A stretch of 20,118 bases of DNA from a virus, in IMG/VR virus record IMGVR_UViG_3300017951_000182, positions 1 to 20,118 of that record; one strand, 5' to 3'. Positions 2,703 through 19,218 of this stretch are shown piece after piece; within the stretch, counting starts at the first letter, position 1, and each line of letters starts with the position of its first letter. The notes under the pieces are model-generated. The model was not told the DNA's origin and made no database searches. It saw nothing but the letters and a program-made list of their open reading frames with translations. The translations under genes were made by a program, and so were the position numbers.

Positions 2703-3742
2703 TAGACGACTTCTAGACTTTCAATATATAGGTTTCGCATAAGATTTTTGAGCATAGTTTTGTCTACGGATACTTCGACCTCATCAATATATTCATTGAG
2801 AAGTGTTGCAGTATCTTTGACTTCAAGGTCTGCATCATCAATCGTATCATCCTCTACAAGTGTTTCTAGAATTTTGATATCGTGTGCTCCTGCTTTCTGG
2901 AGACCATCAATCAAAACTTCAAACTGAGCGTAGTTTGTTTTGTGCTCTACGATAACTTTAACAAAACAATCTTTGTATTCATCAAAGTAATACTGACATT
3001 TCTCAGCATCATTGTAATAGAGTTTTTTGAATATCACAAATGGATTTTTGTGATACTTAAGTTTTTGTGTAGGTGGGTCGAAGGTATGAAACCCTCTAGC
3101 ATCATCACAATCATTCCAGAACATCTGATAAGGATTACCTAGATACTGAATGTTTCCTTTCTTAGACTTGTGATGGAAGTGACCTGAGAATACTTTGTCA
3201 AACTTAGAGAAGAGTGATGGGTCCATACCATGATCCATCTTCATGCCAGGAGTAACTTCAAACCCATTCAGTTCTAGATGTCCCATAGCAACCTTAGCAG
3301 GTGTCTCGTCAATAAACTCCATGGTCTGATTTAGATTACCTGCGTTAATCCAGGGGATAAGAGCAATGGGTGTGTCTTCTACAATTACTGTGGTAGGTTC
3401 ATTATATACAATAATGTTATTATAGTCACATAGAAGCAAATCTGGAGAGTTAACTTCATTTGTGTTTTTGTAATAGGTATCATGGTTTCCCAATATCATA
3501 TGTAGGGTGATACCCATATCCTGTAGCACATCGAAATATTTTTTCTTGACGCGCTGTAGTACATTGAAGTCTACTGATTTACGATTATCAAATGTATCAC
3601 CTAGGTCAATCACGGTGGTGATGTTGTTCTTTTCTAAATATGGAAAGAATACATTTTTATAAAACTTTTCAAAATAATTCCAAAATACACCAGAACCTTT
3701 ACGTCCATCTAGGTGTTGATCAGTGATGAGAGCGATAGTCAT
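2702..3742 (-). CDS. 47: gp47, recombination endonuclease subunit (Mre11/SbcD-like)
   Basis: Metallophosphoesterase nuclease subunit that pairs with gp46. Its 346 residues carry the calcineurin-like motifs in order: D8-x-H10 in ITDQHLDG, LGDTFDNR (47-54), GNHD (85-88), GHLELNG (154-160) and GHFHH (187-191). These are the metal-binding and catalytic positions of Mre11 nucleases, and length matches T4 gp47 (about 340). The stop is fused to the start of the next gene as TAATG. The ATG overlaps, as CATG, the start codon of the plus-strand gene to its right, so any promoter or ribosome-binding site for gp47 must lie inside that opposite-strand gene. I see no strong one there, which makes read-through from the gp55 promoter the simplest source of transcript. 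Confidence 0.96.
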   Translation of the reverse strand: MTIALITDQHLDGRKGSGVFWNYFEKFYKNVFFPYLEKNNITTVIDLGDTFDNRKSVDFNVLQRVKKKYFDVLQDMGITLHMILGNHDTYYKNTNEVNSPDLLLCDYNNIIVYNEPTTVIVEDTPIALIPWINAGNLNQTMEFIDETPAKVAMGHLELNGFEVTPGMKMDHGMDPSLFSKFDKVFSGHFHHKSKKGNIQYLGNPYQMFWNDCDDARGFHTFDPPTQKLKYHKNPFVIFKKLYYNDAEKCQYYFDEYKDCFVKVIVEHKTNYAQFEVLIDGLQKAGAHDIKILETLVEDDTIDDADLEVKDTATLLNEYIDEVEVSVDKTMLKNLMRNLYIESLEVV

Positions 3743-4271
3743 GTTTAATCAGATTAAAGAAAATTTAGATATAATTTATCAATCTATGAAACAGATTGAT
3801 TTAAGTGAAGAAGTAATACCAAATGTTAACGTAGAAGATTTTGCTCCTTTGTGTGTAGAGTTGTACAAACCAAGAAGTTATTATACTCCCAATTTTAAAA
3901 TGGTACACATAAAAAATTATCTGACGGGTGAGATTAAAAAAAATTTAATATTGAATAATGATGTTATAAAGTTATTTGAAAATAAAGATATCTATAATGT
4001 ATATTATTTTAGAGTATGGGGTGATGTACAACCTCATAAAGATCCTACTGGGTATGAATTAAACTATCCATCAACATCTTACGGTTCTATCCTAATTCCA
4101 ATTGATGTTCCAAAAAATTTAGATACATTTTATAATGGAATTAATGTTTCTATAGAGGAAGGAGATTTGTTAAATTGGGATGTTGTAAATTGTATTCACT
4201 CATGGAAATTTAAATACACAAAAAATTATTTTAATATACTACATATAAATTTTAACGATTTTCCATTCTAA
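3741..4271 (+). CDS. Plus-strand AT-rich gene, possible 2OG-Fe(II) oxygenase-like protein
   Basis: The only credible plus-strand gene in the window: 176 residues from the ATG at 3741, with an in-frame ATG at 3723 also possible. I prefer 3741 because it just clears the gp47 coding region; neither start has a convincing Shine-Dalgarno sequence. The fold cue is H99-K-D101 in WGDVQPHKDP, then YGSILIPIDVP (114-124), then GDLLNWDVVNCIHSW with H153. This is an HxD...H spacing as in 2-oxoglutarate/Fe(II) oxygenases, with a cupin-like strand pattern. The expected basic residue about ten positions after the distal His is not clear, so the assignment is tentative. Sampled lines are about 25% GC against roughly 38-40% in neighbours, which suggests separate acquisition. 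Its 3' end overlaps the gp55 end by 20 bases tail-to-tail. Confidence 0.7.
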   Translation: MFNQIKENLDIIYQSMKQIDLSEEVIPNVNVEDFAPLCVELYKPRSYYTPNFKMVHIKNYLTGEIKKNLILNNDVIKLFENKDIYNVYYFRVWGDVQPHKDPTGYELNYPSTSYGSILIPIDVPKNLDTFYNGINVSIEEGDLLNWDVVNCIHSWKFKYTKNYFNILHINFNDFPF

Positions 4272-4749
4272 CTTCAATGTTTTCTTTGATAGAAGTCATG
4301 TCTGAATAACTATGATTCATACCAGACATATCACCATCAAATTTATCTGTGTGCATTAAATGTTCATGACCACTCTTTTCTACAATTTTAGTTTTAATAT
4401 CTAACTGACGTTTTTCTTTTGAAATGCGTCTCAAAAAAGCATACCAGATAATTTGAGTAAAATAAGCAAAAGGATTTTTTGATTTATCTGGATTAAAATT
4501 AGCAATGTATTGCACACAGTTTTCAATACCATCAGAAATCATTTCTTCTCTGAACATATAGTTCACGAAGTTAGGTTTGTATGAAAGGTGTGTAGCAATC
4601 TTCAAAAAACATTCGCCAATATAATTTGGGATACGAGGTTTTGGTTTACCTTGCTCCTCTGCCTCTTGAACTTTATTTTTGTATACGATTAGAGCTTCAA
4701 GGAACTCTTTATTGTTGACGTAATACTCTTTGCTTTTTGCTTTTGCCAT
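4252..4749 (-). CDS. 55: gp55, sigma factor for late transcription
   Basis: Phage sigma factor that, with the clamp and co-activator, directs host RNA polymerase to late promoters. The diagnostic stretch is residues 63-115: NYMFREEMISDGIENCVQ, then NFNPDKSKNPFAYFTQIIWY, then FLRRISKEKRQ, which corresponds to sigma region 2 and is highly conserved in T4-like gp55. At 165 residues it is slightly shorter than T4 gp55 (about 185). A near-consensus sigma70 promoter lies 30-60 bases upstream, consistent with expression before the late genes it activates. The NATAAATA promoters elsewhere in this window are its expected targets. The ATG has no clear Shine-Dalgarno sequence. Its 3' end overlaps the plus-strand gene. 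Confidence 0.93.
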   Translation of the reverse strand: MAKAKSKEYYVNNKEFLEALIVYKNKVQEAEEQGKPKPRIPNYIGECFLKIATHLSYKPNFVNYMFREEMISDGIENCVQYIANFNPDKSKNPFAYFTQIIWYAFLRRISKEKRQLDIKTKIVEKSGHEHLMHTDKFDGDMSGMNHSYSDMTSIKENIEVRMENR

Positions 4750-4780
4750 GTGCCATTGCTGGTATGCTTGTTGTCTCTAT

Positions 4781-4809
4781 ACTATAACAGAGTGTAGAGC
4801 ATCTGTCAA
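4781..4809 (-). promoter_or_regulatory. Sigma70-type promoter for gp55
   Basis: On the minus strand, TTGACA (4809..4804) and TATAGT (4786..4781) are separated by exactly 17 bases. That is a perfect -35 box and a -10 box with one mismatch. Initiation is expected near 4774, leaving a short leader before the gp55 ATG at 4749. Confidence 0.85.
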
Positions 4810-4820
4810 GGGGCTTGACA
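4804..4820. promoter_or_regulatory. Perfect inverted repeat covering two divergent -35 boxes
   Basis: TGTCAAG and CTTGACA arms of 7 bp flank a GGG centre. Each arm contains a TTGACA -35 box, one for each strand. The geometry would let one bound protein block or couple both promoters, or it may simply reflect two back-to-back -35 boxes. Confidence 0.7.
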
Positions 4821-4843
4821 AACCTCAGAAACTACACTAGAAT
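4815..4843 (+). promoter_or_regulatory. Divergent plus-strand sigma70-type promoter
   Basis: TTGACA (4815-4820), 17 bases, then TAGAAT (4838-4843), which differs from the consensus -10 box at one position. Initiation near 4850 would transcribe antisense to the genes at 4882-6785. I see no coding sequence of more than a few codons at the start of that transcript, so its product would be an antisense or non-coding RNA. Confidence 0.5.
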
Positions 4844-4863
4844 AAGTATGTCCGAGAGATAAA

Positions 4864-4902
4864 GAACTATAAGCTTTAAAGCTAGGACTTCTTATAGAGT
4901 TC
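4864..4902 (-). terminator. Possible weak terminator at the end of the 147-residue gene
   Basis: Minus-strand arms GAACTCTATAAG and CTTATAGTTC pair over 10 bp with a two-base bulge, around a 17-base loop, followed by TTTAT. The stem is AT-rich and spans the TAG stop codon. It separates the uvsW unit from the gp55 promoter, but the weak stem makes function uncertain. Confidence 0.35.
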
Positions 4903-5325
4903 TTCTAGGAGTTGTTTCATTGCTTCTACAGAACCTAGATACCCTTTTTCGCTCAGGTCAGGTAGAAATTGGCGGGCACCACTGTCGCCATAAGTTCCCA
5001 TATCAATTTTTGTATTGTCAGGTATATTGGTAGGTGCAGATTTATTTTCTACAGTGTTAATGTAAAAGTTTTTTATATTCTCATCCAGTTCAGACATAGT
5101 TAATACATCTTCTAGACTGATAAAAAAGAAATCATCATAAGAAGCATATATCCAATCTCTTAATACAAATCCTTCTATGTTCTGGCGACCTTTCTTTTGC
5201 TGCATAGGTTCAACAACCATAGGGTCTTGAAGAGTTAGTAGTCCTTCTTCAGTAGCATAAGAAACTTGAGATACTAACTCTTCCCCTGTCTTCAGTTTTA
5301 TAACTGCGTAAAATGGTTCTTCCAT
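4882..5325 (-). CDS. Conserved hypothetical protein after UvsW
   Basis: A 147-residue soluble acidic protein of a type I associate with T4-like cyanophages, without a named function. The first 90 residues (AVIKLKTGEELVSQV, then LLTLQDPMVVEP, then DFFFISLEDVLTMSELDE) look like a small beta-barrel with an LKTGEE opening reminiscent of Sm/Hfq-like folds. That resemblance is my inference from strand pattern alone. The C-terminal third is more polar, ending in a helix (SVEAMKQLLEELYKKS). The ATG overlaps the uvsW stop as TAATG, so it is coupled to uvsW translation. It is the last gene before the gp55 control region. Confidence 0.85.
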   Translation of the reverse strand: MEEPFYAVIKLKTGEELVSQVSYATEEGLLTLQDPMVVEPMQQKKGRQNIEGFVLRDWIYASYDDFFFISLEDVLTMSELDENIKNFYINTVENKSAPTNIPDNTKIDMGTYGDSGARQFLPDLSEKGYLGSVEAMKQLLEELYKKS

Positions 5326-6785
5326 TATGTCAATTTAATCTTAATGATTTCATAGTTAAAGTTCTCCTCTTGATAGATCTTTAAACGTTCGTAGAGATGA
5401 CGAAGTGTATAATTTTCTCTGCCTTTAGTAGAGATATTATCAGATATATCATATAGTGTTGCTATCGCTTTGCCGTCGCCTTTTCTAAGGACTCGACCAA
5501 TTGATTGTAAATTTCTAACCCTGGACTTGGAAGGACTGGCGAAGATGATGTTATGTAGTCTCTTGATGTTAATGCCAGTAGAGAATGTTCCATAAGAAGC
5601 AACGATAACGGCATTGTCTTCTTTCTCTGCAATTTCCCTAACCTCTTCTCTGTCTTCAGTATCAGTAGCACCAGATACAAAGAATACTTTGCGCTCAGGG
5701 TCTACACTATTATTTATCATTTCGTATAATGGTTCCCCATGCTTCTCCACATAGTTGAATAACACAAGGGTATTACCATCTAGATTGTTAACTAAATTTT
5801 TAATAAGATTGTTCCTCTTTTGATGAGAAACAATGTACTCCATCTCTTCATGATAGTCATTGAAGTATTGATACTCATGACGGAGAACTAGACATTTAAT
5901 TCTGAGGTTAGATAGATATCCTTTTTGAATTAGATCATCAGTGCGAGTTACTTTCTCACAGTGTCCAAACAATCCTTCTAGCACCCACTTGTGTGTCTTA
6001 CTACCATCTAGTGTTCCAGTAAATCCAAAACGATACTTAGCATTGTGTAGTTTAGTCATCAGACCAGTGAGGGACTTTGCCTTAAACAGGTGTGCCTCAT
6101 CACCAATTACACAATCAAAGTCATCAAAGTATAGTTTTGGAAACTTGTAGAGTGATTGCCAAGTAGAAATAATAATATCTTTTTTTGTGTTCTTGTCCTT
6201 ACCAGAATATATCTGATGCATATGGTCGTCAGCATTCCAACCATAATCTTTGAAGTCCTTCACCATCTGCTCTACAAGAGATGTGGTAGGCACAATAATT
6301 AGAATCTTAGAACCACTTTCATAATACCAACGCACAAGAGAATAAATCATCAGAGACTTACCGGAACCTGTTGGAGATACAAACAGACCGCGATTGTTCT
6401 TGATAGCTTTATACACTGTGTCATACTGATAGTCTCTAGGTTTGACCTTAGAGATATCTTTCATAAATCCTTTGATACCGCGAGCAGTAGCATCGTTCGT
6501 CTCTACTACATCGCCGTAATATTTGTTGTTAACATACTCAATATCATATGACCTCTTCTCAGCAAAGTCTTGTATCTGAGATAAGAGACCACAATATATC
6601 TCACCTGTACCGGGGGAGTACAGGCGGATAGTTCCATCCCAGTGTCGATACCTAGGATTGCGTCTTAGAAACTTTGCCTCAGGAAGTTCAAATGTAAAGT
6701 AGTCTGATAGTTCCTGATGGACGTGTGGTTCACCTATTACTTTGAAGTAAACCTCGTTCTTTTTCTGAATGGTGATGACAGACAT
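5325..6785 (-). CDS. uvsW: UvsW, superfamily 2 recombination helicase
   Basis: DNA/RNA helicase that in T4 unwinds R-loops and branched DNA, helping switch from origin-dependent to recombination-dependent replication. The 486 residues show an N-terminal domain (1-105), PRDYQ (116-120), Walker A SPTGSGKS (137-144), DEAH (229-232), TGT (256-258), a motif V-like VASYGTFSTGINI (395-407) and motif VI QSIGRVLRKG (427-436). Length fits T4 UvsW (about 500). Start and stop are fused with neighbours as TAATG on both sides, so UvsY, UvsW and the 147-residue protein should be translated from one message. Confidence 0.95.
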   Translation of the reverse strand: MSVITIQKKNEVYFKVIGEPHVHQELSDYFTFELPEAKFLRRNPRYRHWDGTIRLYSPGTGEIYCGLLSQIQDFAEKRSYDIEYVNNKYYGDVVETNDATARGIKGFMKDISKVKPRDYQYDTVYKAIKNNRGLFVSPTGSGKSLMIYSLVRWYYESGSKILIIVPTTSLVEQMVKDFKDYGWNADDHMHQIYSGKDKNTKKDIIISTWQSLYKFPKLYFDDFDCVIGDEAHLFKAKSLTGLMTKLHNAKYRFGFTGTLDGSKTHKWVLEGLFGHCEKVTRTDDLIQKGYLSNLRIKCLVLRHEYQYFNDYHEEMEYIVSHQKRNNLIKNLVNNLDGNTLVLFNYVEKHGEPLYEMINNSVDPERKVFFVSGATDTEDREEVREIAEKEDNAVIVASYGTFSTGINIKRLHNIIFASPSKSRVRNLQSIGRVLRKGDGKAIATLYDISDNISTKGRENYTLRHLYERLKIYQEENFNYEIIKIKLT

Positions 6786-7261
6786 TATAACCCATTAGTA
6801 AATTTCTCCCATTCAATTGCGTTCTTTACCAGGTAGTTTCGCTGGGTGATCATCTTCATTACATTATCAAGATAATTAAGCATCACATCGATTAACTTAA
6901 TTTTGCTTTCTATGTCCAGAATATCTTTATCTGAATCTAGATATACCCTCATCTTTTCAGAAGTCTTAATGCTGGCACCAAATGGTTTCTCAGCATATAC
7001 TTTTGCGTCTGCCTCCCCTCCGTAATACTCTCGCTTCTCTCTGATGAGTTTTCTAAATTCAAATTCCAGCGACACCTTCATTAATGAAAGATCGCTATGA
7101 TGGTTTAAGTATTTATTGTGTTGAAAAGGAGTGTCTAACGAGATAACACTTAGGTTCTCAGAGTATACTCCGTCTTTAATATCAAAATCAATTTGACTAT
7201 CCTTCCTCCATTCTTCTTTAATGTGATCAAATAATTTAGCAAGTTTTTCAATTCGGGTCAT
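6785..7261 (-). CDS. uvsY: UvsY, recombination mediator
   Basis: Loads the UvsX recombinase onto gp32-coated single-stranded DNA in T4. Recognised from REKREYYGGEADAKVY, EKPFGASIKTSEKMRVYLDS, DKDILDIESKI and QRNYLVKNAIEWEKF, which follow the T4 UvsY pattern of an RxxYY-G segment, a basic loop, a SADKD-like motif and a C-terminal helix. I chose the ATG at 7261 (158 residues, beginning MTRIEKLAKL) over a GTG at 7282, because T4 UvsY is about 137 residues and the ATG keeps the overlap with the upstream gene to 14 bases. Its stop is fused to the uvsW start as TAATG. UvsW and UvsY are also adjacent in T4. Confidence 0.92.
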   Translation of the reverse strand: MTRIEKLAKLFDHIKEEWRKDSQIDFDIKDGVYSENLSVISLDTPFQHNKYLNHHSDLSLMKVSLEFEFRKLIREKREYYGGEADAKVYAEKPFGASIKTSEKMRVYLDSDKDILDIESKIKLIDVMLNYLDNVMKMITQRNYLVKNAIEWEKFTNGL

Positions 7262-7760
7262 ATACGTTAAAGCTATTATCACGGAAACTCATTTGGGCAT
7301 ACTTGAACGATGCCTGTGCTGTAACAACACTCTCTTCTCCTATTGTAGCATCAAATTGAATTTGAGACAAGGAGAACGGGAACATGTATCTAAAATCTGC
7401 TACAAGGTTTGCATTAAAATTTGACGTAAGGATTGTAAGTTGTGCGCTTGAAAGATACAGTGGCGCTGTATTTTCAGACTGTCCGTTGTTTCGTATCCAA
7501 TTAAATATCTCAGCATAGTTATGCATATCTTCATCAATAATAAAGGTAGCTTGTAAGTCCCCATAACTTACACCACCCCCACCTATAATAGGAAAAGATC
7601 TAAATCTAGTTGGAACATCAGTAAATGGAACTGAAATGTCAGGAAAATTAACTGCTTGGCAAAAGAACTCTGTGTCTGGAAAAATTTCAAAGTTCATTTT
7701 AAATCCCTGTGGGGATAAAAAATTCCTGTTTCTTGGTTGTTCTTTATACCAATCAGACAT
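7248..7760 (-). CDS. Tail-tube-fold virion structural protein
   Basis: A 170-residue protein. The order of its segments (NFLSPQGFKMNFEIFPDTEF, FFCQAVNFPDISVPFTDVPT, then FIIDEDMHNYAEIFNWI, ending FPFSLSQIQFDATIGEESVV and ASFKYAQMSF) parallels the tail-tube beta-barrel seen in the gp19 protein of this same window: a tube-face N-terminus, a central Asp/Glu plus Trp helix, and a closing strand pair. It is therefore probably a tube, tube-initiator or tail-completion component. Relatives may be listed as gp3, gp54 or simply structural protein, and I cannot choose between them. It overlaps the oxygenase stop by 8 bases and the uvsY start by 14, so it is expressed with recombination genes rather than with the main tail cluster. 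Confidence 0.75.
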   Translation of the reverse strand: MSDWYKEQPRNRNFLSPQGFKMNFEIFPDTEFFCQAVNFPDISVPFTDVPTRFRSFPIIGGGGVSYGDLQATFIIDEDMHNYAEIFNWIRNNGQSENTAPLYLSSAQLTILTSNFNANLVADFRYMFPFSLSQIQFDATIGEESVVTAQASFKYAQMSFRDNSFNVYDPN

Positions 7761-18894: not shown

Positions 18895-19218
18895 TCAAGA
18901 AACGTGAACAGTTCCAATCATACCGGCACCTTTATGTGGTCCGCACCAGTATGTGTAATCCCCTGCTTCAGCAAAGGTAACATCAAATTCTTCGCCGGGC
19001 ATCATAGCAAGACCTTCGTGTGAAATCTCTGGATGGTCCTCCACAACTACGTTATGAGGAGGAAGCATATTATTAACAAAATGAACTGACTCCCCAGCAG
19101 CAATAGAAACTTCAGCAGGTTCAAACACAAGATTACCATCGTAACCCATTTGAACGTCAACAGCCCATGCAGGAAGTGCAAAAAATAGTGAAGCAAGTAG
19201 TCCTAAAAGAAACTTCAT
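18895..19218 (-). CDS. petE: Plastocyanin
   Basis: Small blue copper protein that carries electrons from cytochrome b6f to photosystem I in the thylakoid lumen. The 107-residue precursor has a Sec-type signal peptide with a hydrophobic core (LLGLLASLFFALPAWA), cleavage expected after A19. All four copper ligands are present: H55 in PPHNVVVED, then C92, H95 and M100 in WCGPHKGAGM, with the standard C-x2-H-x4-M spacing. This is a host-derived auxiliary metabolic gene of the kind known in cyanomyoviruses; its likely role is to keep photosynthetic electron flow going during infection. There is no clear Shine-Dalgarno sequence or strong promoter directly upstream. It sits between structural genes, so it may be carried on a late transcript. 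Confidence 0.96.
   Translation of the reverse strand: MKFLLGLLASLFFALPAWAVDVQMGYDGNLVFEPAEVSIAAGESVHFVNNMLPPHNVVVEDHPEISHEGLAMMPGEEFDVTFAEAGDYTYWCGPHKGAGMIGTVHVS

Follow-up and report, generated by a model that had tools for sequence, protein, structure and literature searches.

A conserved promoter pointing away from gp55 overlaps the gp55 promoter in T4-like cyanophages

Introduction

Upstream of gp55, the gene for the late-transcription sigma factor, a T4-like cyanophage fragment carries two near-consensus host-type promoters that face outward, one serving gp55 and the other pointing antisense into the neighbouring genes. What does the second promoter do at this locus, and could its position bear on the timing of late gene activation? 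The lambda PR/PRM pair consists of overlapping divergent sigma70 promoters. The switch of plasmid pLS20 has the same layout (PMC4207663). In E. coli, steric exclusion at opposed promoters is documented, with competition if one direction of a bidirectional promoter is strongly active and none if both are weak (PMC12825309). Cyanophages possess middle genes in the absence of MotA and AsiA (PMC2984593, PMC5780444), both of which were reported to be missing from cyanomyoviruses (PMC2984593).

Results

Two outward-facing promoters share the gap upstream of gp55

We analyzed a 20,118-nt stretch of viral DNA, hereafter the window (IMG/VR record IMGVR_UViG_3300017951_000182, positions 1-20,118), which is a fragment of a T4-like cyanophage. 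The minus-strand genes run in the order uvsW, PHROG_471, gp55 and then gp47/gp46, and the 132-bp gap upstream of gp55 holds both promoters, back-to-back and 5 bp apart (Table 1). Reading the sequence confirmed the core of a preliminary description of this locus, namely TTGACA, a 17-nt spacer and a near-consensus -10 on both strands in divergent orientation, a perfect 7-bp inverted repeat with a 3-base centre formed from the two -35 boxes, and expected starts that each fall 7 nt past the respective -10. With near-consensus -35 and -10 boxes at a spacing within 16-18 nt, both are host-sigma70-type promoters by sequence. HMM searches verified that the gene served by the minus promoter is gp55 (PHROG_234); the plus promoter, described as antisense to the uvsW unit, does point that way (uvsW, PHROG_16), with the amendment that PHROG_471 lies directly beneath it, before uvsW.

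Table 1 Features of the window discussed in the text.
Feature	Position	Strand	Details
182-aa ORF	3723-4271	+	No PHROG match; between gp47 and gp55, opposite to neighbours' direction
gp55, late-transcription sigma factor	4252-4749	-	HMM PHROG_234, E=9.6e-68; ~25-nt leader from minus promoter
gp55 promoter	4781-4809	-	TTGACA 4809-4804, 17 nt, TATAGT 4786-4781; TG before -10; predicted start 4774 (A)
Inverted repeat TGTCAAG-GGG-CTTGACA	4804-4820		Two -35 boxes; perfect 7-bp arms, 3-bp centre
Antisense (plus) promoter, probably of the start-site-motif class	4815-4843	+	TTGACA 4815-4820, 17 nt, TAGAAT 4838-4843; predicted start 4850 (G)
Start-site motif, about -6 to +12	4844-4861	+	Diverged form AAGTATGTCCGAGAGATA of family consensus AACTCTGTNAGGGTTNAA
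PHROG_471, annotated 'methylamine utilization'	4882-5325	-	HMM; antisense to plus promoter, first under plus transcript
uvsW helicase	5325-6785	-	HMM PHROG_16, E=7.6e-130; farther on antisense path, after PHROG_471
petE, phage-carried plastocyanin gene	18895-19218	-	PHROG_515

The two promoters are the sole sites matching 11 of the 12 hexamer positions among the 49 sigma70-like sites of the window, where 61 such sites were expected. Simulating the window 300 times with a first-order Markov model gave on average 0.89 sites with at least 11 of 12 matches, so that a single one is not rare by chance, and two or more arose with a probability of 0.22. A back-to-back pair was obtained in none of the 300 simulations, and the analytic expectation is about 3e-4 pairs per 20 kb. 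An Rfam scan over positions 3500-7500 returned nothing near threshold. In S-PM2 and S-H9-2, the place of the window's 182-aa plus-strand ORF is taken by a short ORF on the minus strand.

The plus promoter is conserved at gp55 loci

We collected 80 IMG/VR loci with gp55 relatives; dropping distant or out-of-register ones left 69, which were dereplicated to 36. The loci left out of the 36-locus alignment were L059, where the element is visible by eye, and seven distant ones, L067, L072 and L075-L079. At these seven, the most distant T4-like loci, the arrangement was not seen by eye, and it is therefore not universal among T4-like phages. Every one of the 36 dereplicated loci carries the plus promoter, with TTGACA and a TAnnnT -10 and always pointing away from gp55, and the spacer measures 17 nt in 35 of them and 18 nt in one. 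The search thus covered loss of the plus -10 or the palindrome in relatives that keep the gp55 promoter, and found the plus promoter retained throughout; it appears not to be an accident. The arrangement was also found in S-SKS1, which is classed outside Kyanoviridae. Motif promoters of Syn9 and S-PM2 lie on the minus strand, at 123733-123705 and 84474-84446, respectively.

Conservation extends past the -10 box. The bases that follow it are usually AACTCTGTNAGGGTTNA, spanning roughly -6 to +12, and this start-site motif, typically AACTCTGTNAGGGTT, is usually present at gp55-locus plus promoters. Mean pairwise identity across the 36 loci was 0.84 for the -10, 0.55 for the spacer and 0.71 for the 16 bases after the -10, compared with 0.30-0.33 in the gp55-side flank and 0.35-0.40 farther downstream; the value of 1.00 for the -35 is partly by construction, since an exact TTGACA was the anchor of each row, and means that every locus had one. 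The motif has drifted both in the window (AAGTATGTCCGAGAGATA) and in the relatives closest to it (AAGCTTGTCGGGAAAAGATA in L007). The window copy AAGTATGTCCGAGAGA has diverged from AACTCTGTNAGGGTT, L007 and L009 bridge the two, and its position and -35/-10 boxes fit the class.

Promoter overlap, rather than the palindrome, is the conserved feature

A gp55-side partner promoter lies within 14 bp of the plus promoter at 40 of 41 loci, with a score of 9-12 (hexamer matches plus bonus). Across the 41 loci, the -35 hexamers of the two promoters are mostly 2-7 bp apart, are 14 bp apart in one and coincide in seven, where a single 7-mer, TTGTCAA/TTGACAA, is the -35 for both directions. In Syn9, covered by a second, separate scan, the promoters interpenetrate, each -35 lying within the spacer of the other. 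These comparisons indicate that the conserved feature is promoter overlap, and that the palindrome is probably a by-product of two -35 boxes meeting. The proposal that RNA polymerase can hardly occupy both promoters at once accordingly gains from an overlap conserved at the loci compared, as judged by anatomy. The companion proposal, that the palindrome is the operator of a single regulator, is not supported: its centre varies in length and it vanishes in seven of the 41 loci. As for the suggested toggle of late gene timing, the overlap and the antisense orientation survive as conserved, the palindrome does not, and the likely control point moves to the start-site motif of the plus promoter, where the co-varying signal described below is located.

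Measured against known systems, the locus resembles lambda PR/PRM and the pLS20 switch in its outward-facing promoters, overlapping polymerase footprints (by anatomy), adjoining key regulatory gene and scope for competition. Unlike in those systems, one arm here is geneless and antisense, neither arm has a regulator gene, the spacing within the central inverted repeat varies among relatives, and a dedicated operator between the promoters was not found. Mutually exclusive binding of opposed polymerases is shared with bacterial bidirectional promoters (Warman et al., PMC12825309). Those, however, share a -10 and have starts about 10-23 bp apart, whereas here the -10 boxes are 51 bp apart, the starts are about 77 bp apart, and it is the -35 ends that meet or coincide.

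The plus promoter is probably one of a class with copies elsewhere in cyanophage genomes

BLAST with the element located additional copies at other places in several cyanophages. We scanned six complete genomes with a profile that combined the -10 with the start-site motif and excluded the -35, which gave 20 hits above cut-off versus seven with the reversed profile. Each genome has two or three strong copies, every one of them preceded at exactly 17 nt by TTGACA or by a variant with one mismatch. One copy per genome is at gp55, pointing away from it, and the others precede short sense ORFs, as exemplified by those upstream of a tRNA cluster (S-H9-2), a thyX/phoH region (S-CAM9) and nblA (S-SCSM1). 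The pattern TTGACA-N17-TAnnnT-nAnnnTG matched 33 sites in 18 phage records versus two for its reverse, and the few of the 33 that lack the rest of the motif are probably chance. The usual copy number is 1-4 per genome; in the complete records of P-SSM2 and S-SSM7, no copy besides the gp55 one was found.

The loci examined hold at least 218 distinct sites, at least 152 of them at gp55. Among the matches listed, the longer open frame is antisense at 147 of the 149 assessable gp55-locus sites, and 45 of the 64 non-gp55 sites are followed by a sense ORF that is 50 aa or longer. Among the genes behind the non-gp55 copies are members of a RusA-like resolvase family, of the GIY-YIG-like PHROG_447 and of several unknown families. 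The TTGACA-17-TATAAT form is that of early host sigma70-like promoters of cyanophages (PMC2984593), and, unlike most of these, members of the class carry the start-site motif; a genome has 17-33 strong sigma70-like sites, of which just a few bear it. From the sigma70 form and the small-ORF and nuclease genes behind the copies, the class is probably early. An exact scan for the window-type motif within its clade found it at gp55 loci only; a close variant, AAGTCTGTCCGAG, stands ahead of a sense ORF in L646 and is also present in L621, both non-gp55 sites on contigs that do not include their gp55 copies.

The start-site motif is matched within genomes

The motif differs among phages and agrees between unlinked copies of one phage. 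AACACTG is the form in Syn9, S-H35, S-H38 and S-MS29, and shared genome-specific variants are AACAATG in ACG-2014d, ATCTCTG in S-SCSM1, ACCTTTG in S-SKS1, AAGCTTG in the L007 phage and the GACTCTGTTGGGGGTC form in G015; P-RSM1 is a partial exception (AACACTG versus AACTCTG). Comparing gp55 with non-gp55 copies over 18 nt in 19 genomes, including the relative L007, we obtained a mean score of 13.4 within genomes versus 8.3 (sd 0.55) when copies were re-dealt (p=2e-4, the lowest value that 5,000 shuffles allow, in a permutation that ignores phylogeny). One S-SKS1 copy in this test was assigned to gp55 by a weak match. Matching of the 17-nt spacer was weaker (0.45 versus 0.38, p=0.002, again ignoring phylogeny), an outcome that speaks against the element having simply been copied as a unit. 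Moreover, the matching covers bases upstream of the predicted +1, and recognition is therefore at least partly of DNA. Such agreement implies that one trans-acting factor may read the motif within each genome, and suggests that one viral regulator could couple early transcription to the time at which late genes are activated.

We considered dyad symmetry and a host origin for the motif, and found support for neither. The consensus shows partial symmetry (0.63 at centre +7) without co-variation of its halves (p=0.32), and we therefore make no dimer claim; a dimeric repressor is one option, and activation is equally compatible. A one-genome-per-species scan returned at least 118 partial-pattern sites, three with the full motif among the matches listed. 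These three are in bins, with no gp55 detected on the retrieved stretch, and most of the remaining partial-pattern matches listed represent an unrelated promoter of Ruminococcus type. A recurrent TTGACA-N17-TATAATAACTCTGTTAYGTCTGTAAG-like element occurs in Ruminococcus and in other Clostridia of the gut (L454, L462, L478, L518 and similar loci) and is apparently unrelated to the phage class. A limited literature search on these phages found no report of the start-site motif.

A possible timer for late-sigma synthesis

Drawing on the class, its conservation, orientation and overlap, and the within-genome matching, all of which are read from sequence, we tentatively favor, at somewhat less than even confidence, a model in which the gp55 promoter faces competition from a strong antisense promoter until the class is shut off by a start-site factor. 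The plus promoter would be the gp55-locus member of a cyanophage host-sigma70 class whose motif is read by a phage-encoded factor. Host-type RNA polymerase would fire it once phage DNA enters, antisense to PHROG471 and uvsW, an early use that we infer from its near-consensus form. Its occupancy would keep polymerase off the overlapping gp55 promoter and so hold gp55 initiation down, and antisense firing would also oppose read-through from the uvsW unit. Binding of the factor at the motif would then close the class and free the gp55 promoter at the same moment, so that late-sigma synthesis would be timed by early-promoter shut-off. In this model we infer transcription from the plus promoter, a factor that is phage-encoded and a repressor, an occlusion that is strong enough, and the timing; the lack of competition between weakly active directions of E. 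coli bidirectional promoters would, by analogy, count against occlusion. If the model is true, the overlap beside the late sigma gene makes an early-to-late timer. Published Syn9 start-site data may already show part of this arrangement.

A broader version, which we regard as possible though rather doubtful, is that in marine T4-like cyanophages the missing MotA/AsiA switch is replaced by a factor that reads the genome-specific motif, with shut-off of the antisense promoter freeing gp55. A conserved, testable element beside gp55, together with a motif apparently read in trans, would offer a handle on middle and late timing in phages that lack MotA and AsiA.

Alternative roles of the plus promoter

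Somewhat less probable still is that a cis-antisense RNA made from the plus promoter regulates the PHROG471/uvsW(/uvsY) mRNA, the overlap of the two promoters being incidental to compact packing. PHROG471 lies antisense at nearly all of the listed gp55-locus sites, where a sense ORF is usually absent, and the window's plus strand has no terminator-like site from 4850 to 6400. S-PM2 provides a precedent for antisense transcription in a T4-like cyanophage with CfrI (PMC2984593, PMC5931967), which is an expressed RNA, whereas the transcript here is predicted; the CfrI locus is psbA/homing endonuclease, unlike the gp55 locus, and CfrI has not been described as a member of a promoter class with multiple copies. 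However, conservation is poor beyond the motif, the first 141 nt of the predicted antisense leader in the window show no more folding than shuffled sequences (z -0.23), and an antisense RNA alone leaves the match of the motif with copies elsewhere unexplained.

We consider it unlikely that the class is middle rather than early and that the factor is an activator or RNA-polymerase modifier, which would help gp55 from a position about 80-90 bp ahead of the gp55 start. Within-genome matching is compatible with any kind of reader of the motif, and cyanophages have middle genes without MotA/AsiA, as cited above, but near-consensus -35 and -10 boxes should need no activator, and the gp55 promoter is near-consensus too.

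Promoter-driven replication origins are known in T4. Priming of replication by the antisense transcript, as an R-loop origin, would suit a geneless promoter that points toward uvsW and has few copies per genome; this is quite improbable given that non-gp55 copies are mostly followed by genes and that a weak test in six genomes showed no GC-skew change at the sites. Least probable by far is a leftover promoter that came with the gp55 -35 box, for although one is easily gained from back-to-back TTGACA and sigma70-like sites are common in AT-rich DNA, this one is kept with its -10, and usually its motif, at all 36 dereplicated loci, matches unlinked copies and belongs to a pair rarely expected by chance.

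Other arrangements of the promoter class

At another locus, in the marine contigs L359, L373, L389 and L196, the class stands back-to-back opposite a small ORF (MTMTPEQLLENF...), a second antisense arrangement, and an ATAAATA late-promoter-like box precedes this ORF. In L110, L115, L148 and S-CAM9 (141596; L243), the -35 TTGACA of the non-gp55 copy forms the loop of a hairpin that, with a T run behind it, resembles an intrinsic terminator, so that terminator and promoter appear fused. In L110, L115 and S-CAM9 141596, a late-promoter-like box, TATAAATA, follows the start-site motif, resembling tandem early and late promoters.
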